Shown here: positions 21,595-31,800 of the stretch, one piece after another
Numbering within the stretch: the stretch's first letter is position 1
How the letters are laid out: the number at the start of each line of letters is the position of its first letter
Assembly (NCBI RefSeq): GCF_001698225.1
Contig: NZ_CP016594.1
Coordinates: 2,356,001 to 2,420,000 of the forward strand
Length of the DNA stretch: 64,000 nucleotides
Direction: 5' to 3'
From: Gordonia terrae
GTDB taxonomy: Bacteria; Actinomycetota; Actinomycetes; Mycobacteriales; Mycobacteriaceae
Position numbers and translations under genes: made by a program
Notes under the pieces: generated by a model
What the model saw: the letters and a program-made list of their open reading frames with translations, nothing else
Told to the model about the DNA's origin: nothing
Database searches by the model: none

Positions 21595-22312
21595 GGCCGT
21601 GCGGGAGGATGGACCGCGAGCCGCGCTGCTCGACGCCCTGGACACCGACATCCCCGATGAGCTCCTCACGCTGGCGCTGACCCATCGGTCCTACGCCTAC
21701 GAACACGGCGGTCTCCCCACCAACGAGCGCCTGGAGTTCCTCGGCGACTCGGTGCTGGGCGTCGTCATCACCGAGCGTCTCTATCTGCGCTATCCCGATC
21801 GTCCCGAGGGTGAACTGGCCAAGATCCGCGCGAGCGTCGTCAACATGCACGCCCTCGCCGATGTGGCTCGCGGGCTCGGGGACGAGGGCGGGCTCGGAAA
21901 ATACCTGTTCCTCGGTCGCGGCGAGGAGATGACGGGCGGCCGCGACAAGGACTCGATCCTGGCAGACGGTCTGGAATCACTGTTCGGCGCGGTCTTCCTC
22001 AGCCATGGTCTCGAGACCTCGCAGCGGGTCATCCTGCGCTTGTTCGACGAGCGTCTCGACCGTGCCGGCAGCCTCGGCGCGGGCCTGGACTGGAAGACCT
22101 CGCTCCAGGAGCTGAGTTCCGAGCGCGGCTTCGGTCCGCCGCAGTACCAGATCAGCGCGACCGGTCCAGACCACAACAAGGAGTTCACCGCGACCGCGCT
22201 GGTCGCGGGCGAGAGTCTCGGCGAGGGCGTCGGCCGGACCAAGAAGGAAGCGGAGCAGCAGGCGGCTGCGCATGCCTGGAAAGTGCTCACCGAGCGCGCT
22301 TCCGCCTCGTGA
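21587..22312 (+). CDS. rnc: Ribonuclease III
   Basis: A double-strand-specific endoribonuclease for rRNA maturation and antisense regulation. 241 residues from GTG 21587, inside the end of the DUF177 gene. The catalytic signature [15 protein letters not shown] and the second acidic site ([14 protein letters not shown]) are intact. A C-terminal dsRNA-binding domain ([19 protein letters not shown] ... [16 protein letters not shown]) follows. The size is standard. It is followed by mutM after 51 nt. Confidence 0.96.
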
Positions 22313-22363
22313 AACCCGGCTTCGTGATCTTCCGTCTCGTGCACGACCTGCCCGCGGTGTCGC

Positions 22364-23269
22364 ATGCCTGAACTGCCCGAGGTCGAGACCGTCCGCAGCG
22401 GTCTCGAGACCCATCTCGTCGGGCGCGTGGTGACCTCGACCGAGGTCCTCCATCCCCGCGCGATCCGTCGTCATGCCGGGGGTGAGCCGGATCTGATCGG
22501 CCGGCTCGCCGGCAAGCAGGTGACCGGCGTCCGCCGCCGCGGCAAGTACCTGTGGATCGATCTCGCCGACTCCACCGACCGGGCGGCGCTCGTGGTCCAT
22601 CTCGGGATGAGCGGGCAGATGCTCATCGCGCGGGTCGGAACCCCCGACCACACGCATCTGCGGGTCCGCGCCGTCCTCGACGACGAGAACGAACTCCGCT
22701 TCGTCGACCAACGCACCTTCGGCGGCTGGCATCTCGACGACTACACCCCTGATGTGTATGCGCCCCAGCATAATTCGGGCACGACCGACTCGGCATCCGC
22801 TGACGTCCCGACGTCGGTGGCGCACATCGCCACCGATCCCTTCGATCCGGCTTTCGATCCCGGCCGTGTCGTGGATCGCATGCGCGCCAAGCACTCCGAG
22901 ATCAAACGGGTGCTGCTGGACCAGACCGTCATCTCCGGGGTCGGCAACATCTACGCCGACGAGGCGCTCTGGCGCGCGCGCCTGCACGGTGCGCGGATCG
23001 CCGAGACCATCAGTCGCAAGAAGCTACGCGAACTGATCGACGCCGTCACCGACGTGATGGCGGCGGCGCTGAAGGTCGGCGGGACATCCTTCGACGCGCT
23101 GTATGTGAACGTCAACGGACAGTCCGGGTACTTCGAACGGTCCCTGAACGCCTACGGGCGGGCGGGGGAGCCGTGTCGCAGGTGCGGCGCGATCATGCGG
23201 CGGGAGCAGTTCATGAACCGGAGCTCGTTCTTCTGCCCGAAGTGCCAGCGGCCGCTGCGAACTCTGTAA
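22364..23269 (+). CDS. mutM: Formamidopyrimidine-DNA glycosylase
   Basis: Removes 8-oxoguanine and ring-opened purines from DNA. The 301-residue enzyme starts [15 protein letters not shown] (catalytic Pro2 and Glu3), has the beta-hairpin lysine in [11 protein letters not shown], a helix-two-turn-helix ([17 protein letters not shown]) and a C-terminal zinc finger with four Cys ([11 protein letters not shown] to FFCPKCQ). It is complete and looks functional. Its last ~100 nt (23147-23248) have a second, 81% identical copy 3.17 kb downstream (26318-26419), so the gene end appears to be the insertion point of an accessory island. Confidence 0.96.
23147..23248 (+). repeat. mutM 3'-end copy 1 (possible left attachment site)
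   Basis: These 102 nt encode the MutM zinc finger and align without gaps to 26318-26419 with 83 of 102 bases identical by hand count. Together the two copies bracket the accessory genes, as expected when an element integrates into the 3' end of a gene and carries a replacement end. Confidence 0.7.
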
Positions 23270-23868
23270 AGCCTCTGCCTGGACAGCGATCGTTCCCGGA
23301 GCGCTGCGATGTACGTTGTACGTTTTGGTCGCGTGCGCATCACCGTGATCCTGCGAAAGTCGGATCGACCTAAGGAGTCGGAAGGTAGGTTTCAGGCTCC
23401 CGAAGCCCTATCGCCACCGCCAACGTGACCTGCTTTGACGGTTGAAAGTAGGCGGTTGGCTCCTGTCGATCTGCGCGTGGCAACGCCAGGTGACCGCTCG
23501 CATCGAGATTGGCAGCTGGGGGACTAGGTGCAGTGACTTGACAGGGTGTTGTCAAGCGGCGAGCACGCAGTCAAAGCAAGTCCCCTCGATCGACCGCTCT
23601 GGGTAACGCTTGGGCTTGGTGCGAAGCTTCAACAAGAAAGCGTGACTAGCAGTGATGGCATCACGCCCGGACAACCCCGGGGGCACATCATCCGGTGGGG
23701 GACGAACCGGGAATCCTGCAAGGGGCGTCCCGCGGCACAACGTCCCGACGACCGGGCACTGGTGCTGAACTGCGAGTACATCAAGACCGTCGTGCCTGAC
23801 GTCGCTGAGACTGATGGACTGACATGATGAGTGTTTGAGGCCCATCAGGAGACGAGTTAAGAGGCTGC
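23270..23868 (+). other. 600-bp region without a convincing gene
   Basis: Short open frames exist on both strands, for example 23546-23827 (+) and 23552-23845 (-), but neither has a ribosome binding site or a recognisable product. The region contains the inverted repeat CTTGACA-N6-TGTCAAG at 23537-23556. Just after the mutM stop is a degenerate look-alike of the palindrome found at 26451-26468 (GATCGTTCCCGGAGCGCTGCG near 23290). It may hold regulatory sequence for the downstream pair, or a decayed gene. Confidence 0.4.
23537..23556. promoter_or_regulatory. Inverted repeat CTTGACA-N6-TGTCAAG
   Basis: Perfect 7-bp arms with a 6-nt spacer, about 310 bp before the first island gene. The left arm contains a consensus -35 hexamer, TTGACA, so the repeat may be a promoter-operator. 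No matching -10 was seen at the right distance. Confidence 0.35.
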
Positions 23869-25038
23869 ATGAGTTTGGTGAATCAGATCCACGACACGCG
23901 AACCGATTGCTACTCAGTTATGACCGAGATGAAGGTAGGGGACTATCTGAAGGTCGTTGAGAAGGCGCATGCCGATAGGGGAGGTATTGAGGGCCAGCGC
24001 GCGGTCTTGGGGACTACTACCGCGCGGCGCATCCGAGACCGGATGGTCTCGGATATCACGCAAGGTGCTGTTCTGCCCCCGATTGTCATCGGCCTGGTCG
24101 TTGACGTGGAGACCTTCAATGCCGGGCCTCTGTCGACATTCGAAGAACTGCAAACGATTCTTGCCGGAGCACCGGGTGAGGACGTCGCGATTATCGACGG
24201 TATGCAACGCACTGCCGCCCTGCTCGCAGCAAGCGAGCAGGACGAGTCAGTAAGCGACCGGCCAATGCGAGTTGAGTTCTGGCTGACGCGGGGCGTTCGC
24301 GCTTTGATCTACAGGATGCTGGTACTCAACACCGGTCAGGTTCCGTGGACACTCGATCGACAGATAGCTGTGGTGTTCGCGTCGATGCTTGGAGAGGTCC
24401 GTGACCGTGTCCCTTCAATTGAGAAGCTGATCACGCCTGATGAACCCGGCCGACGCGTTGGCGCCGCGCAATTGAGGTTTGACTCCATTGTCGAGATGTA
24501 TATGGCCTTCTCACTACGAAAGGCGACGGTCGATACAAAAGAGCAGGTTTCTGACGAGTTCTCGCGCCTCGACTTTGTTGAGAACTTAGATGACACCAAT
24601 TTCCAGGCCCAATTCTACGGAGTGCTGGAGATGCTCGTTGATCTCGACAAGGAATTCTCACGAGCGGCAGCTTCTCCAGGTGTGCCGCTCAGTAGCGGGC
24701 GTCGGGTATTTGATCGGCAGCCGGCACGAATCGGCTTCTCCGTGGCCTTCGGCCTCAAAATAATCGGCCGTCCGGGCGAGAGTCGCAGCTCGGAGAAAAA
24801 GGCGCGCGCTTTGCAGACCCTACAATCGCAACATCAGGATTTTCTCGATCAGCTGAAAAGGCTTAATGACCAAGAACTCGTCGACTTTCTGCGCCTGGAT
24901 GTTCTTGGGGAGGTTCTCGATAAACGTGTTGGTCAGGTTGGTCGTTATGAACGCGGAGTCTTTCAGGAGGCTTTCAAGGTGCTCATTGAAGAGCAGTTCG
25001 ATGTGACGTCGATGGAGATATGCTGGAGGGCAGCGTAG
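23869..25038 (+). CDS. DGxQR-motif (DGQHR/ParB-like fold) protein of unknown function
   Basis: A 389-residue protein with ATG preceded by AAGAGG. The N-terminal half has the pattern of DGQHR/DndB and DUF262-type domains, which share the ParB/sulfiredoxin fold: an early GQRAV (residues 42-46), a hydrophobic strand LPPIVIGLVV (69-78), then IIDGMQRTAALL (108-119), where DGMQR replaces DGQHR/DGQQR, and LNTGQVPW (153-160) plus DRQ (163-165), resembling the N-x-x-Q-x-P segment of those families. The C-terminal half is helical and unrecognised. These families act in phosphorothioation control and in defence systems. The next gene starts at or within its end, so the two form an operon. TTA codons and lower GC mark it as foreign. 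The family assignment is by motif only. Confidence 0.7.
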   Translation: MSLVNQIHDTRTDCYSVMTEMKVGDYLKVVEKAHADRGGIEGQRAVLGTTTARRIRDRMVSDITQGAVLPPIVIGLVVDVETFNAGPLSTFEELQTILAGAPGEDVAIIDGMQRTAALLAASEQDESVSDRPMRVEFWLTRGVRALIYRMLVLNTGQVPWTLDRQIAVVFASMLGEVRDRVPSIEKLITPDEPGRRVGAAQLRFDSIVEMYMAFSLRKATVDTKEQVSDEFSRLDFVENLDDTNFQAQFYGVLEMLVDLDKEFSRAAASPGVPLSSGRRVFDRQPARIGFSVAFGLKIIGRPGESRSSEKKARALQTLQSQHQDFLDQLKRLNDQELVDFLRLDVLGEVLDKRVGQVGRYERGVFQEAFKVLIEEQFDVTSMEICWRAA

Positions 25039-25040
25039 TA

Positions 25041-26126
25041 GTGTCTCGGAATGCCAAAGACACTGCAGCCACGATCTTCGATCGGCTCGTGCGGTACGCA
25101 GCGGACCGAGGAGTGCAAATCCCGCTCGGCGAACGATACATATTTCTCGATGAGGCCGAGTACGACATCCTCGTGAGGACTAAACGGCTTGCGCACGTCA
25201 AGTTCGGGAGGAACCAGGCCGCTGCGCTGATCAAGTCACAGAACACGGTGGTACTGGCGATTGCAGGGTTTGAGGCCGAGGCAGTGGTATCGACCTCCCA
25301 GACTCGCGAGGTGGAGATGACTGCTGGACTCGCGGTCGCGATGCTGGCTGATCTGGAAGTGAATCCATCAGCTAGTCCAGCGTCCGTCCTTGATGTCGCT
25401 GGAGCGGGCAGCGCGGCGGATGGCGGGTATCAGGGTCACGACCTCGATCTGGTGTTGGGGCTCTATCCAGACATGCAGGCCCTCGAGATCGACGACCTGG
25501 CCGCCGGATGGACGGATCTTGACGCCAACTTATTACCCACGTGTGCTCGTCAGGGCGCCCACGGCAACGGCTGGGTCAACAGTGAACTCGCTGGTGAACT
25601 TGCAATGCTTGGGGAGCAACGTATTGCGGGCATCCCGTACGAGTTCCTGACCCGGGCGGTCCTTGATCTGAACCCCACAAGTCTCTTCCTATCGCTGTAT
25701 CGCTGTCTGGAGGCCACTTACGCGTATACAAAGGCTTCAGAACTCGCTACCACTCTTGGGATATCCAAGCCCTGGATTGAGATTGCCGAAGCGTTGGGAA
25801 ACACCCTCAGCTGGTATCCACGCCACGATCAGGGTTTGGCTGCAGTCCTGGCTATGCCTACGGTTGGCAGTGACGAACTTGAGGCACTGGCCGTCGCTCT
25901 TGGCCGCGACGAAGGTGCGGATGCACTCTCAACTCGTGTTGCCGCTGGCGTGCGAGAGCTACGAAATAGCTTAGTGCACTACGGCCCAACGACACGTCAG
26001 GTGGCTATCTTGAACGACGATTGGAATGCGCTATGCATTCCTCTTGCACGAGTCGTGGGGAGCGTATTCGCGCATGCGTATGCGGGCGACTTACCGGCAG
26101 TCTCATCGACGTTAGGTGATCGTTAG
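25041..26126 (+). CDS. Unknown protein with C-terminal HEPN-like RNxxxH motif
   Basis: A product of about 361 residues from GTG 25041 (GGAGGG lies 10 nt upstream); an ATG at 25020 overlapping the previous gene would give 368. The N-terminal ~100 residues look like a small alpha/beta domain (YIFLDEAEYDILVRTKRLAH). The C-terminal third is helical and contains ELRNSLVHYG, with R308-N309-x3-H313. This is the RNxxxH (Rx4-6H) motif of HEPN-domain ribonucleases and related Apea-like HEPN proteins. It is coupled to the upstream DGxQR gene and has several TTA codons (for example two in a row near 25529). A defence or toxin role is inference; no homologue is recognised outright. Confidence 0.65.
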   Translation: MSRNAKDTAATIFDRLVRYAADRGVQIPLGERYIFLDEAEYDILVRTKRLAHVKFGRNQAAALIKSQNTVVLAIAGFEAEAVVSTSQTREVEMTAGLAVAMLADLEVNPSASPASVLDVAGAGSAADGGYQGHDLDLVLGLYPDMQALEIDDLAAGWTDLDANLLPTCARQGAHGNGWVNSELAGELAMLGEQRIAGIPYEFLTRAVLDLNPTSLFLSLYRCLEATYAYTKASELATTLGISKPWIEIAEALGNTLSWYPRHDQGLAAVLAMPTVGSDELEALAVALGRDEGADALSTRVAAGVRELRNSLVHYGPTTRQVAILNDDWNALCIPLARVVGSVFAHAYAGDLPAVSSTLGDR

Positions 26127-26317
26127 AGCGGCGCTGTTTGCCCGCGCGGATAGAGGCGAAAGTTGCCTCGATCTACCCGCTGCGGAAATACCTCGATGGT
26201 GACGCCAGGCAATCTCTCGACGGCGAGGTCGGCTGGTCGGGTGCATCTGTCCTGCTCAAAGAACACGCGAGATCAAAACTCTTTAACCGTCTTCATCGCG
26301 TACCTCGGCTGTCCTTC

Positions 26318-26440
26318 AACCCCTACGGACGCGAAGGGCAGCCGTGCCGCAGCTGCGGGGCAATCATGCGCCGAGAGTCGTTCATGAACCGCAGCTCGTA
26401 CTTCTGCGCGCGGTGCCAGACCGTGCCTCGGCGCCGCCCA
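26318..26440 (+). pseudogene. Displaced mutM 3' end (zinc-finger fragment)
   Basis: Encodes NPYGREGQPCRSCGAIM and continues through FMNRSSYFCARCQ, matching the MutM C-terminus at 26 of 34 residues over 26318-26419, with all four zinc Cys kept. Of 34 codons most DNA differences are silent, so this segment evolved as the end of a working mutM. Homology stops abruptly just upstream of 26318 and fades after the last Cys. It is best read as the former chromosomal mutM end, or an incoming one, left over after integration or recombination. Confidence 0.75.
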
Positions 26441-26481
26441 CGTCGCTACGAGCGTTCCGCGGAACGCTCGTAGCGACGTGG
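26438..26481. repeat. 44-bp perfect palindrome with no loop
   Basis: Bases 26438-26459 are the exact reverse complement of 26460-26481, centred on CCGCGG. The central 18 bp (AGCGTTCCGCGGAACGCT, 26451-26468) occur again inside the HNH gene at 27195-27212. It could be a REP-like element, a recombinase site or a bidirectional terminator. Confidence 0.85.
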
Positions 26482-26579
26482 CCACCCATTTTGTCGGTGG
26501 GCGCCGCTACGTTGTTCGCATATCCGTTCGAACAGCTGGGGGGCTCGGGGTGTCGGTTTCGGTATTGCACGGTGAGAAC

Positions 26580-27983
26580 GTGTCGTCGATGTTCGATGGC
26601 GCGGATCCGGCGTCGTTGTCCGATGACGCGTTGGAAAGCAGGGTGCTGGTTCATGCCGCGCAGATCACCGCTCTCACCGCCGAGTTCTTGTCTCTGGTGG
26701 CGGAGTTGAATGAGCGGCAGTCGTGGCGGGGGCCGGGTGTTCACTCCCTGGCGCATTGGCTGTCGTGGAAGGCGGGTGTCTCTCGGCGCACGGCGCAGGA
26801 GCAGGTACGGGTGGCGAAGGCACTGACGGAGTTGCCGCTGATCCGGCAGGCGTTCGGTGCGGGGCGGTTGTCATATTCGAAGGTGCGGGCGCTGACGCGG
26901 GTGGCGACCCCGTTGCGGGAGAAAGAGCTGGTGAACCTGGCGTTGTCGTGTACGGCCTCCCAGCTGGAGCGGGCGGTACGTGCGATGGGACGGATCGATA
27001 TGGATCGTGGCATCGAGGCGGAGAATCGCCCGCCGGTGGAGTCGACAGGCCGGTGGAAGTGGAATGCCGATGGTTCCTTGTCTGTGTCGCTGACGCTGTC
27101 TCCGCTGGATGGTGCCAGGGTCCTTGCCGGTGCGGTCCGTGCGGAGTACGAACGCACCCGGACCTGCGACGATTCGGATCTGCCCGCGGTGTCGAGCGTT
27201 CCGCGGAACGCTGCGAGCGAGTTGGAGACCGTGGAGGGAGAACCGGATTTCGAGGTCAAGCCGGCGAATCGGCGGGACCTGTGGCGGAATGTGCCGTCGA
27301 ATCTGGCTCCCGCGATGGTGGCCATGGCCGACATGGTGCACGACGGGATCGCGATGCCTGATCTCGCTCCGGGCGCCGAGATCCTGATCCACACCGACGA
27401 GGGTGGAGAACTGGCCCACCTCGATGACGGGCCGGCGCTGTCGGTGGCCGAGTTGGAGGAGGTGCACTGTGGTGCTGCGGTCCGGAAGGCGTTGTCCAGG
27501 AAGGTGTCCGGCGCTCCAGGGAAGTTGGCATTGTTGGGGCTGGGGCGTAAGTCGCGAACGCCGAACAGGGCACTGGTCAGGGCGTTGTTCGTGAGAGACC
27601 GGTGCTGTCAGATGCCCGGCTGTGAACGCACACGGCATCTGCACGCCCATCACGTGGTGTTCTGGTCGGCCGGTGGGGAGACCGACCTGGACAACCTGAT
27701 TCTGTTGTGTGGGAGCTGTCACCGTGCGTTGCATCGGGGTGAGTTCAGTATCACCGGTCATCGGTCGCAACAGTTTTCGTTCCACAGGCCGGGTGGTTCG
27801 GTGATCGACGTAAGTCCCGCGACACGCGCGCCGGGGCAGTGGTCGCCGGATGAACGGGTGGCGGCGGATGCGACGGTGCCCGTGGGTGGCGGCAAGCTTG
27901 ACCTCGGGTACGCGACCGAGGTGATCTATGCGGTGTGGGAATGGAAGGAACGCAGCGCACGCCGAGACGCGGCAGCGGCCTGA
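26580..27983 (+). CDS. DUF222 / HNH endonuclease-domain protein (13E12 family)
   Basis: A protein of about 467 residues; start set at GTG 26580 (GGTGAG upstream), with ATG 26589 as alternative and an in-frame opening back to 26478. The N-terminal two thirds fit DUF222 (helical, LAHWLSWKAGVSRRTAQEQV). The C-terminal HNH nuclease motif is CQMPGCERTRHLHAHHVVFW, then GGETDLDNLILLCGSCHRALH, with the His-His pair, Asn and final His in place. These 13E12-type genes occur in many copies in Gordonia and mycobacteria; their role is unsettled. The codons around PAVSSVPRNAAS contain the 18-bp palindrome also found just upstream, in a spot where this family is variable. Confidence 0.85.
   Translation: MSSMFDGADPASLSDDALESRVLVHAAQITALTAEFLSLVAELNERQSWRGPGVHSLAHWLSWKAGVSRRTAQEQVRVAKALTELPLIRQAFGAGRLSYSKVRALTRVATPLREKELVNLALSCTASQLERAVRAMGRIDMDRGIEAENRPPVESTGRWKWNADGSLSVSLTLSPLDGARVLAGAVRAEYERTRTCDDSDLPAVSSVPRNAASELETVEGEPDFEVKPANRRDLWRNVPSNLAPAMVAMADMVHDGIAMPDLAPGAEILIHTDEGGELAHLDDGPALSVAELEEVHCGAAVRKALSRKVSGAPGKLALLGLGRKSRTPNRALVRALFVRDRCCQMPGCERTRHLHAHHVVFWSAGGETDLDNLILLCGSCHRALHRGEFSITGHRSQQFSFHRPGGSVIDVSPATRAPGQWSPDERVAADATVPVGGGKLDLGYATEVIYAVWEWKERSARRDAAAA
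27195..27212. repeat. 18-bp palindrome, second copy, inside the HNH gene
   Basis: AGCGTTCCGCGGAACGCT is identical to the centre of the 44-bp palindrome at 26451-26468. Here it is in-frame and encodes SVPRNA-type residues within a variable segment. Confidence 0.85.
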
Positions 27984-28031
27984 CGACGTCGGAAGCGGCC
28001 GGTGCGGGAATCTTTCCTGATCCTCGGCTCT

Positions 28032-28037
28032 TACTAT
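28032..28037 (+). promoter_or_regulatory. Putative -10 element upstream of the OsmC-like gene
   Basis: TACTAT (TANNNT) about 50 nt before the ATG, in the short gap after the HNH gene. This would give the osmC-acyP pair its own promoter, outside the island. Confidence 0.35.
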
Positions 28038-28086
28038 GGTCTGCGGTGCCAGCGCCGCCCCGCCGCCTGAGAGGACCCATCCCAGC

Positions 28087-28545
28087 ATGACGATCGAACA
28101 GAACACCGCCGCCCCGGCACAGGCCGCGGAGCCCGCGTACACCGACCTCTGGGTCGAGCGCACCGGCACGCGCCGCTACACCGGACGCAGCTCGCGCGGT
28201 GGCGAGGTGCTGATCGGCTCACAGGATGTCGATGGTGTGTTCACCCCGGGTGAGCTGCTCAAGATCGCATTGGCAGCCTGCACCGGCATGTCCTCGGACC
28301 GGCCGCTGGCGCGTCGCCTCGGTGACGACTACGACGCGACGATCCGGGTGAGCGGCGACGCGGACCGCGACAACGAGGTCTACCCGCGCATCGAGGAGAC
28401 CCTCGAGATCGACCTGTCCGAACTCGACCCCGATGCCGCCGCGCGCCTGCTGGTCGTCGTCGAACGGGCCATCGACGCGGTGTGCACGGTCGGGCGCACG
28501 GTGAAGGCCGGTGCCGAGGTGGATCTGCGGATCGAGACGGACTGA
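28087..28545 (+). CDS. OsmC/Ohr-family protein
   Basis: A 152-residue protein of the OsmC family, which reduces organic peroxides with a Cys pair. The first Cys lies in LAACTGMSSDRPLARRLG and the second in DAVCTVGRTVKAG, the two positions used by OsmC/Ohr. The start ATG 28087 was chosen over an in-frame start at 28036 that lies inside the probable promoter. It occupies the Rv2923c position and runs into acyP 5 nt later. Whether it is a true peroxidase is not decided by sequence. Confidence 0.88.
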   Translation: MTIEQNTAAPAQAAEPAYTDLWVERTGTRRYTGRSSRGGEVLIGSQDVDGVFTPGELLKIALAACTGMSSDRPLARRLGDDYDATIRVSGDADRDNEVYPRIEETLEIDLSELDPDAAARLLVVVERAIDAVCTVGRTVKAGAEVDLRIETD

Positions 28546-28549
28546 CCCG

Positions 28550-28855
28550 ATGACCGACGAGACCCGGATTGGGGACGGCGCCGACCGCATCAGGCTGACC
28601 GCGCATGTCCACGGACACGTGCAGGGCGTGGGCTTCCGGTGGTGGACGCGGTCCCGCGCCCTCGAACTCGGTCTGGTCGGCTACGCATCGAACCAGGCCG
28701 ACGGCCGGGTGCTCGTCGTCGCCGAAGGGACACGGGACTCGGCGCTCGCCCTGCTGGAGGCGCTCCGGTCCGGCACCACGCCGGGACGGGTCGACCTGGT
28801 CGTCGAGCGTGTGGATGAACCGCGCGGGGACCTCGACGGCTTCGTCGAACGGTGA
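28550..28855 (+). CDS. acyP: Acylphosphatase
   Basis: Hydrolyses acyl phosphates such as carbamoyl phosphate. A 101-residue protein with the motif VHGHVQGVGFRWWTRSRA, containing the catalytic Arg in GVGFRWW, and GYASNQADGRVLVVAEG with the catalytic Asn. Length is standard. It lies between osmC and smc, matching Rv2922A in M. tuberculosis. Confidence 0.93.
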   Translation: MTDETRIGDGADRIRLTAHVHGHVQGVGFRWWTRSRALELGLVGYASNQADGRVLVVAEGTRDSALALLEALRSGTTPGRVDLVVERVDEPRGDLDGFVER

Positions 28856-28885
28856 GCGGAGCCCGGAACATGTCGCGATGGTGAG

Positions 28886-28891
28886 TAGTCT
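28886..28891 (+). promoter_or_regulatory. Putative -10 element of smc
   Basis: TAGTCT (TANNNT) ends 8 nt before the smc GTG. No Shine-Dalgarno is visible, so a leaderless smc-ftsY transcript is plausible. Confidence 0.4.
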
Positions 28892-28899
28892 GTACCGTC

Positions 28900-31800
28900 G
28901 TGCACCTCAAAAGCCTGACCCTGAAGGGCTTCAAGTCGTTCGCCTCGGCGACGACCCTGCGCTTCGAGCCGGGTATCACGTGCGTGGTGGGCCCCAACGG
29001 CTCCGGTAAGTCGAACGTCGTCGACGCCCTGACCTGGGTGATGGGCGAGCAGGGCGCCAAGGCGCTACGCGGCGGGAAGATGCAGGACGTCATCTTCGCC
29101 GGCACATCCGGCCGGCCGCCGCTGGGCCGCGCCGAGGTGACATTGACGATCGACAATGCCGACGGCGCGCTGCCCATCGAGTACTCCGAGGTCTCCATCA
29201 CCCGCCGGATGTTCCGCGACGGTGCCGGCGAGTACGAGATCAACGGCAGTTCGTGCCGGCTGATGGATGTGCAGGAGCTGCTCTCGGATTCGGGTATCGG
29301 CCGCGAGATGCACGTGATCGTCGGCCAGGGCCGGCTGTCGGCGATCCTCGAGTCCCGGCCCGAAGACCGCCGCGCGTTCATCGAAGAAGCCGCGGGTGTA
29401 CTCAAGCACCGCAAGCGCAAGGAAAAGGCGGTCCGCAAGCTCGACGCGATGCAGGCCAACCTCGCGCGCCTGACGGACCTGACCGCCGAACTCCGTCGCC
29501 AGCTCAAGCCGCTCGGCCGGCAGGCCGAGGTGGCACGCCGTGCCCAGACCGTGCAGGCCGACCTCCGCGACGCCCGGTTGCGTCTTGCCGCCGACGACCT
29601 CGTCACCCGCCGGACCGAGATGGCCGAACACGCCGCCGTCGAGGACGAGGTCCGTCGCAGGCAGGATGAGGTGGCCGCCGAGCTGGACCGCGCGAACGCG
29701 GAAGTGGCCGAACACGAACAGCATCTCGCCGAGATCACGCCCGCCGCGGCCGCCGCGAACCGCGCGTGGTTCCGGCTGTCGGCGCTGGCCGAGCGCGTCG
29801 ACGCGACCCGCCGGGTCGCCGCCGAACGCAGCCGGTACCTCAGTGAACCGTCCGGCGAGGCGTCCGGACCCGACCCCGACGAGCTCGACGAGCAGGCCCT
29901 CGAGGCCGCCGAACTCGAAGCCGAACTCACCGAGGGCGTCGAGATCGCCGCCGAACAGCTCGAGACCGCCAGAGAAGTCCTCGGCGAGCGCGAGTCGATC
30001 GCCGAAGCCGCCGAGGCCGCTCACCTCGCCGCCGTCCGCGCCATCGCCGACCGTCGGGAGGGATTGGCGCGTCTGGAAGGGCAGGTCGACAACCTACGGA
30101 CGCGTTCGGAGTCGGTCGACGCCGAGGCGCAACGCCTCACGAACGCGATCTCGGCGGCCACCGAGCGCGCCGAAGGTGCTGTGACGCAACAAGACTCGGC
30201 CGCCGGAGAGCTGGCGCAACTCGAGGCCGCCGAACGCGCTCTCGACGAACATCACGAACGCTGCGTCGCCGCGCTCAACCTGTCCAACGAGCGCGTCGCG
30301 ACCCTGCAGGCATCCCACCGCGAGGCCGAGCACGCCATCGCCTCGCTGTCGGCGCGGGTGGACGCGCTCGCCATGGGACTCGAACGGGGCGACGGCGGTG
30401 CCTGGTTGCTGGAGAACGCGCCCGAGGGTCTCCTGGGTCCGATGTCCGAGCTGGTCACGGTCGAGGCGGGCTTCGAGACGGCCATCGCCGGGGCGCTCGG
30501 ACCCGCCGTCGACGGCATCGTCACCGTCGACGGGATCGCCGCGGTGCGAGCGCTGGCGGCCCTCAAATCCGGCGACGGTGGACGGGCGGCGCTGATCTGC
30601 GGCGGGCTCACCGGTCCGGACCGGAAGAGTGAGGTCGCGTTGCCGGACGGGGCCAGGTGGGCCGCCTCGGTGGTCGACACCCGGCCCGAGATCCGCGGTG
30701 CCATCGACACCGTCCTGGCCGACACCGTCATCGTCGACGATCCCGCCCAGGGACTCGAACTCGCCCGCCGCCTCGGGGTGCGGGCGGTGACCCCCGCGGG
30801 CGACCGCATCTCGGCAGCGTCGGTCGAGGGGGGTTCGTCGCGCCGACCCTCCACGCTGGAGGTCCAGTCCGCGATCGATGCGGCGACCGCCGAACTCGGC
30901 GCGACGCGCCGACGCGTCGAAGAACTGGAGGCGGCGCTCGACGGTGCGCTGACCGAACAGCACGAGCGACGCGAAGCGGCCGAGGAGGCGCTCGCCGCGC
31001 TGCACGAGTCCGACGCCGGCGTCGGCGCCGCGTACGAGCAGATGGCCCGGCTCGGTCAGGAGATCCGGGCGTCGCGCGCCGAGGCCGACAAACTGACGCG
31101 CCAGCGGAACCTCCTCGAGAAGGGCCGCGCGGAGACCCTCGAATCGTTGCAGGAACTCACCGAGCGGCTTCGGCTCGCGCGCGACGAGCCCGAGGTGGGG
31201 ACCGAGATGTCGGCCGACGACTCCGAGCGCGCGACCGCATCGGCGGCGGTCGGGGTGGCGCGCAGCGCCGAGATGGAGGCGCGTCTGACGTTGCGGACCG
31301 CCGAGGAACGCCTCGCCTCGGTCCGGGGCAAGGCCGACTCGCTGCGTCGCGCCGCCCAGCGCGAGCGGGAGGCGCGCGAACGAGCCCGCCGCCAGGACGA
31401 GATCCGGCGACAGGCCGCCGGCGTCGCGGTGGCCGTCGAACGCGCGGGCGCGCAGGTCAGTGAGCGCCTCGCGGCAGCGGTGGCCTCGGCGCAGGCCGGG
31501 CGCGACGAACTCGAGGAGATCCGGACCGCACGTACCGCAACCCTGGACGAGCTCCGCGTTCGGGCGGGCGAGCTGACGACCACGCTGAACTCACTGCGCG
31601 ACACCGTCCACCGCGACGAGGTGGCGCGAGCCCAGGTCGCGCTCCGCATCGAGCAACTCGAAGAGCAGGTGCTCGAGACGTTCGCGATGGCACCCGACGA
31701 TCTGATCGCCGAATACGGCCCCGACGTGCCGATGCCCCCGTCGGCGCTGGAGATGGCCGAGTACGAGCAGGCGAGGGAACGCGGCGAGCAGGTCGTCGCG

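Follow-up and report, generated by a model that had tools for sequence, protein, structure and literature searches.

The DNA examined here (hereafter the window) is a stretch of 64,000 nt from Gordonia terrae (assembly GCF_001698225.1, contig NZ_CP016594.1, positions 2,356,001–2,420,000, forward strand), and it holds a pair of adjacent genes that we read as a divergent form of the phage-defence system Dazbog, with a dzbA-like gene first and a dzbB-like gene directly behind it on the same strand. We put at about 0.6 the probability that the pair is such a system, in which DzbA would act as a sensor restraining DzbB, a predicted ribonuclease (RNase), until a phage-made cue releases it. The placement rests upon the first protein: the PADLOC DzbA model PDLC03835 covered its residues 1–389 (E 7.7e-49), and the pair therefore belongs with Dazbog. 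An earlier note on this DNA, made from the sequence letters, had not recognised the pair as a described system; the system is known by name, and the features and domain guesses of that note hold up.

The gene pair

Both of the adjacent open reading frames reported in the earlier note were recovered (Table 1). The likelier start of gene 2 is GTG 25041, which lies two bases past the gene-1 stop with a GGAGG sequence 11 bases ahead of it; ATG 25020 is also possible and would give a frame of 368 aa (25020–26126) overlapping gene 1; the two-base gap between the genes was also seen in two plasmid relatives. Residue numbers for DzbB are counted from the GTG, and the R308/H313 numbering used previously is correct from that start; the same residues become R315/H320 when counted from ATG 25020.

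The dzbAB pair is foreign by composition. GC content was 0.559 for gene 1 and 0.586 for gene 2, against 0.65–0.71 for four neighbouring genes, and third-position GC was 0.628 and 0.613, against 0.77–0.88, in agreement with the lower GC reported before. The TTA leucine codons ascribed to both genes were found mainly in gene 2 (5 of 47 leucine codons) and barely in gene 1 (1 of 37); the four neighbours had none.

DzbA

The DzbA model matched all 78 aligned DzbA sequences, the window protein among them, at E ≤ 0.01, and a profile built from five DzbA (window included) aligned with four canonical DzbA over 348 columns (probability 99.8, E 9.8e-29). The window DzbA was 20 and 21% identical to the DzbA of loci L006 and L007, whose partners are strong DzbB matches. 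A search of phage records gave no DzbA match.

The suggestion that protein 1 is ParB/DUF262/DndB-like was supported at the level of the family: at E ≤ 0.1, the Pfam model GmrSD_N (DUF262) matched 67 of the 78 sequences (best 1e-6) and the DndB model matched 24 (best E 1.9e-6). The window protein itself matched neither at that threshold; searched alone, it gave nothing in Pfam and one sub-threshold match in NCBIfam. None of three GmrSD_N scores among the matches listed reached the curated cut-off of 33.2 bits. The DGxQR-type and LNTGQVPW segments described earlier are both present (IIDGMQR at residues 108–114, LNTGQVPW at residues 153–160), and across the 78 sequences D110, G111, Q113 and R114 were invariant, the core reading IDG[MIV]QR in every one. 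DzbA thus resembles the DUF262 proteins GmrSD, BrxU and SspE in its weak GmrSD_N similarity and its DGxQR core; it differs from them in having M, I or V for the middle Q of DGQQR, in its HEPN-type partner, and in that no DUF1524 or HNH model appeared among the best 25 of 29 Pfam families matched by the DzbA set. The HEPN-type partner likewise sets it apart from the DndB/DGQHR proteins that the DndB matches recall. The AlphaFold2 model of DzbA had a mean predicted local distance difference test score (pLDDT) of 91.8.

DzbB

The C-terminal half of protein 2, which contains the segment ELRNSLVHYG, has the look of a HEPN domain, its Rx4H site intact, and is predicted from sequence and model to be an RNase. 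DzbB was aligned for 68 sequences, window included, with the rows picked for R-x4-H; the presence of R308 and H313 in all 68 rows (N309 in 58) is thus partly circular. R and H were also kept in all eight pairs picked by adjacency alone (the window and seven plasmid loci, these seven being drawn from ten records with a DzbA match). Glu was found at position 224 in 68/68 rows, which had been chosen by Rx4H and not by Glu. The AlphaFold2 model (mean pLDDT 93.4) places R308–N309 at the close of helix 296–312 with H313 just past it, E224 at the close of helix 212–224, extra helices at 228–286 in between, and a last helix at 328–346 after the motif. As described in passages of PMC3710099, HEPN anatomy comprises an Rx4-6H motif ending helix 3 with a polar residue after the R, an acidic residue conserved in helix 2, and helix 4 after the motif, with additional elements between the second and third helices. 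The DzbB C-terminus has this motif and this helix layout, the numbering of helix 3 being our own assignment. Together with the profile matches below, the motif, the invariant acidic residue and the layout lend support to the HEPN-type C-terminus proposed in the earlier note.

HEPN_Apea was the commonest Pfam match of the DzbB set (12/68, best E 1.1e-3), a likeness to ApeA; a profile match of DzbB to Ec4ApeA in the PDB was not significant (E 0.74). ApeA is a single-protein system, unlike the two-gene dzbAB. The HEPN models pEK499_p136, RiboL-PSP, MAE_28990, Csm6 and Swt1, and Abi_2, matched one or two DzbB each. MAE_28990 and RiboL-PSP-HEPN genes resemble dzbB in that, according to passages of PMC3710099, a HEPN gene and a ParB-like gene share an operon, which for MAE_28990 also contains DNA methylase genes; they differ in that just 1 and 2 of the 68 DzbB, respectively, matched those models at E ≤ 0.1. 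No statement naming DzbB as a HEPN protein was found in the review passages on Dazbog; other papers may make it.

The kinship with canonical DzbB is confined to this C-terminal domain. Six sequences were used as canonical DzbB (two strong PADLOC matches, two close relatives of these, and two moderate matches); all six carry Rx4H, and the alignment of the DzbB family profile with them covered no more than the C-terminal domain (probability 93.7, E 1.9e-7). Against the window DzbB, identity averaged 0.17 over the N-terminal half and 0.24 over the C-terminal half. The PADLOC DzbB model matched 45 of the 68 aligned DzbB at E ≤ 0.01 and missed 23, including the window protein. As a separate observation, three loci had DzbB frames of 642–653 aa with a long N-terminal extension, the true start being uncertain; these were found in Pseudomonas sagittaria (L074, 6986–8932), Achromobacter aestuarii (L076, 7004–8965) and a viral contig (L104, 1013–2941).

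Pairing and distribution

The two genes go together. Viral contigs and one genome per species were scanned and gave 97 DzbA loci (80 from genomes, these being the best 80 of 90, and 17 from viral contigs), of which 92 were assessable after leaving out five that ended within 1 kb of DzbA. DzbB lay downstream on the same strand in 89 of the 92, as detected with a search profile itself built from the DzbB alignment, and the adjacency proposed in the earlier note is thus conserved. The motif R-[NHC]-x3-H was present in 88 of the 89 downstream DzbB, the remaining gene (L058) being broken ahead of the motif. The loci were not all independent, since L047 and L095 share one DzbA. By record title they came from actinobacteria, proteobacteria, Bacillota, Bacteroidota, cyanobacteria and others; the loci at which DzbA stood alone (L031, L034 and L046) were on Parabeggiatoa and Desulfobacterales contigs. 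Distance matrices of DzbA and DzbB were correlated (r 0.844 over 61 rows, with none of 2000 permutations as high), a value that includes shared species history. Near the window dzb was rare, being found in 1 of 121 relatives and, across the phylum, in 1 of 396 genomes, in each case the window's own genome. A reverse search with the DzbB model covered 193 genomes from a single Bacillus-type family and matched 6 of them.

Proposed mechanism and alternatives

We propose that DzbA may be a nucleotide-binding sensor of the ParB/DUF262 type that silences DzbB for as long as the cell is uninfected. The cue would be made by the phage and would most likely be either phage DNA bearing methylation or some other modification, or the methylase itself. 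This cue would alter DzbA; the changed DzbA would free or activate DzbB; and DzbB would cut RNA, so that growth would stop before phage release. Such an arrangement would join a sensor in the style of type IV restriction to an RNase in place of a deoxyribonuclease. We infer the gating of an RNase effector by a sensor from statements in reviews together with the domain anatomy. Phage methylases can activate Dazbog by a mechanism described as unclear in a passage of PMC12409349; the mechanism is listed as unknown in an excerpt of PMC12926258; and review passages give recognition of methylated DNA, or activation by phage methylases, as the likely way in which Dazbog responds. A wider scheme is offered tentatively, as a possibility somewhat short of an even chance: all Dazbog systems might consist of a modified-DNA sensor, whose DUF262-related DG[MLIV]QR pocket would bind to methylated phage DNA as its signal, and a HEPN enzyme that this sensor activates and of which the N-terminal half would be exchangeable between subfamilies.

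Several results weigh against a divergent Dazbog with a sensor and an RNase. No PADLOC, Pfam or NCBIfam model matched the window DzbB, the N-terminal 190 residues of DzbB are without explanation, and with only the 14 nearest sequences in the profile the match to canonical DzbB fell to probability 15.6 (E 0.0017). The single HEPN matches in the DzbB set count for little, because about 17 unrelated Pfam families also gave single matches at E ≤ 0.1. The earlier note had expected structural matches for both proteins; Foldseek returned nothing from the PDB at E ≤ 0.001 for either model, nor anything from BFVD (a viral library) for DzbB, and the HEPN fold therefore rests on motif, layout and profiles and not on a structural search. 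The core motif of DUF262, (I/V)DGQQR as given in a passage of PMC10952713, was not found in DzbA, the middle Q being missing in 78/78. DzbA had no DzbB downstream at three of the 92 assessable loci, and among Bacillaceae-family DzbB loci, with L162 left out, tblastn found DzbA at one of five (L159), in flanks of at most about 1.5 kb.

The closest alternative is that only DzbA links the pair to Dazbog by descent, the second protein having been swapped for another HEPN protein with a different N-terminus, so that the window would hold a sister system; we regard this as rather unlikely. The failure of the window protein against the DzbB model, and the restriction of the canonical DzbB match to the C-terminal domain, would be expected from such a swap. 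The match of DzbA over its full length argues against it, as do the 45 of 68 aligned DzbB in the same family that match the DzbB model, because these intermediates join the two ends. The choice between a sister system and a divergent Dazbog is a question of filing, and the former is compatible with the mechanism proposed above.

The pair could instead be a toxin-antitoxin module in which DzbB is the toxin, of HEPN type, and DzbA has no DNA-sensing role and is simply its protein antitoxin; the shut-off of the host by a phage would then remove DzbA and give defence. Tight coupling of the two genes and their correlated distances would suit such a module, HEPN proteins are found in toxin-antitoxin as well as defence modules (PMC9519451), and a ParD-type antitoxin gene is another entry at the same genomic site (see below). 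We nevertheless think this improbable: conservation is far higher in DzbA than in DzbB (41% vs 20% mean column identity), DzbA has an invariant DGxQR/LN core resembling an active pocket and stands alone at the three loci given above, and the reviewed activation by methylases also speaks against a plain antitoxin. It is still harder to credit, and we hold it very unlikely, that DzbA is itself a nuclease or nickase acting upon modified DNA, like restriction enzymes of the ParB/DUF262 type, with DzbB a nucleic-acid-binding helper. This would accord with the profile similarity of DzbA to DUF262 and DndB and with its best Foldseek matches in the PDB, which were not significant (E 0.1–2.4) and had the restriction proteins SspE and BrxU at ranks 1–3 and PadC, which is ParB-like, at ranks 8 and 10. 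The cutting domain in GmrSD, BrxU and SspE is, per a passage of PMC10952713, DUF1524, for which DzbA gave no model among the Pfam families considered above, and the Rx4H kept in 88/89 DzbB would be needless in a mere helper. A divergent Dazbog in which DzbA gates DzbB remains the reading that we prefer.

Neighbours of related loci

A cluster of C5-cytosine methyltransferases was found within about 6 kb at 16 of 101 loci (three of them Pfam-tested), a raw count without a background rate; the neighbour clustering was done without L095, L099 and L036. Within the same distance there were tyrosine integrases at five loci, serine recombinases at five and Vsr-like genes at four, labelled by reading of their sequences. 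Of 166 immediate neighbours, 147 were scanned with PADLOC (19 were set aside as long or surplus); at least 7 of the 147 matched cytosine methyltransferase models at E ≤ 1e-10, and such matches filled the best 25 of 152 families. Genes beside the methyltransferases were of Eco29kI, HpaII or GIY-YIG type in three of five tested and had no match in two. A special methyltransferase partner, suggested by an apparent single subfamily at 8 of the 16 linked loci, was rejected since these neighbours were restriction-type in three of the five, and for the same reason we read the methyltransferases as ordinary defence-island neighbours. Alphaproteobacterial C5-cytosine methyltransferases with an FFEFFAGGGM-like start were observed near dzbAB, often next after dzbB (loci L002, L005, L020, L021, L027, L028, L040 and L094).

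The mutM–OsmC site

The earlier note had placed the pair at a hot spot in mutM. The site at mutM is indeed variable; the insert lies behind an intact mutM and not inside it. Two genomes of the genus, G057 (the closest relative compared) and G047, had an empty site with the OsmC gene directly after mutM, and with mutM whole in the window, insertion inside mutM was rejected. DNA similarity to G057 was lost close to the mutM end, at 23255, and resumed at 28139 (at 28026 for G047), so that the window has about 4.8 kb extra, comprising dzbAB, a second mutM tail, a palindrome and an HNH/DUF222 gene (Table 1).

Table 1. Features of the window at and around dzbAB (window positions)
Feature	Position	Strand	Description
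mutM, intact, resident-type allele	22364..23269	+	94% aa identity to G057
dzbA-like gene	23869..25038	+	389 aa; DzbA / DUF262-DndB-like (ParB-Srx type) protein, proposed sensor
DGMQR core motif	24196..24210	+	codons 110–114 of dzbA
dzbB-like gene	25041..26126	+	361 aa from GTG; C-terminal HEPN-type domain, proposed RNase effector
Glu224 codon, invariant acidic residue	25710..25712	+	end of helix 212–224
RNSLVH, HEPN Rx4H motif	25962..25979	+	codons 308–313 of dzbB
second mutM 3' tail (zinc-finger codons)	26311..26419	+	81% identical to 23140–23248
44-base perfect palindrome	26438..26481	.	between mutM tail and HNH gene
HNH/DUF222 gene	26478..27983	+	Pfam DUF222 and HNH; same variable stretch, outside Dazbog

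The 20-base core of the palindrome occurred once in the genome, and an inverted 33-base partner of it (85%) was located inside the HNH/DUF222 gene at 27193–27225; an Rfam search of 22000–29000 gave three sub-threshold miRNA matches only, on the palindrome. The HNH gene was found at the site without dzb in G002 and G018 and was absent from G057 and G047. No integrase was recognised inside the insert among the window's open reading frames, Pfam having been applied to five of them.

What lies between mutM and the OsmC gene (23270–28025 in the window) varies within the genus. By our own reading of the result rows, a second mutM tail lay downstream of mutM, on the same strand and contig and within 22 kb, in 11 of 59 genus genomes (the window's own, G005, G008, G011, G015, G020, G025, G030, G044, G046 and G052); G053 and G017 had several kb between mutM and OsmC with no second tail seen. 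Among the genomes whose cargo was read, it differed from one to the next and was in some cases defence-like. The cargo included HNH genes in G005 (Pfam-tested) and G015 (a look-alike), a ParD-type antitoxin gene in G008, a SIR2-like gene with a HerA-type ATPase gene behind it in G044 (L170, 3690–6511; PDB sequence matches to SIR2 proteins at E 5.3e-6 and to HerA at E 1.2e-71), a large gene without a PDB relative in G046, and, in G020 (L167 and L168), a 22-kb stretch with a serine resolvase and the second mutM tail at its end, which looks like a mobile element. These data suggest that mutM–OsmC is a recurrent integration site; mutM as an insertion site was not found among the matches listed in a literature search. 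The order of the insertion events can only be guessed at. The idea that the full mutM carries an imported tail, 26311–26419 being the resident one, was dropped because the G057 tail is identical in protein to that of the window's mutM over 55 residues, and also because the fragment and the HNH gene look like their counterparts in G018, a genome in which a single 3.2-kb alignment to the window spans mutM tail, HNH and OsmC. Separately, an N-terminal mutM fragment (codons 1–197) was seen directly before a complete mutM in G016 (L149, 2392–3898).

Significance

If confirmed, the novelty here lies in the divergence of the second protein and in a specific RNase hypothesis for a system whose mechanism is listed as unknown. 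The HEPN-type site in 88 of 89 loci offers a direct handle on the effector, and the DUF262-like partner one on the trigger. The PADLOC DzbB model missed 23 of the 68 aligned DzbB, and Dazbog may therefore be undercounted; the mutM–OsmC site seems worth searching for defence genes in this actinobacterial genus. Were the wider scheme for all Dazbog systems true, the logic of type IV restriction would have been carried over into RNA-cutting abortive infection, and the triggering of Dazbog by phage methylases would be explained.

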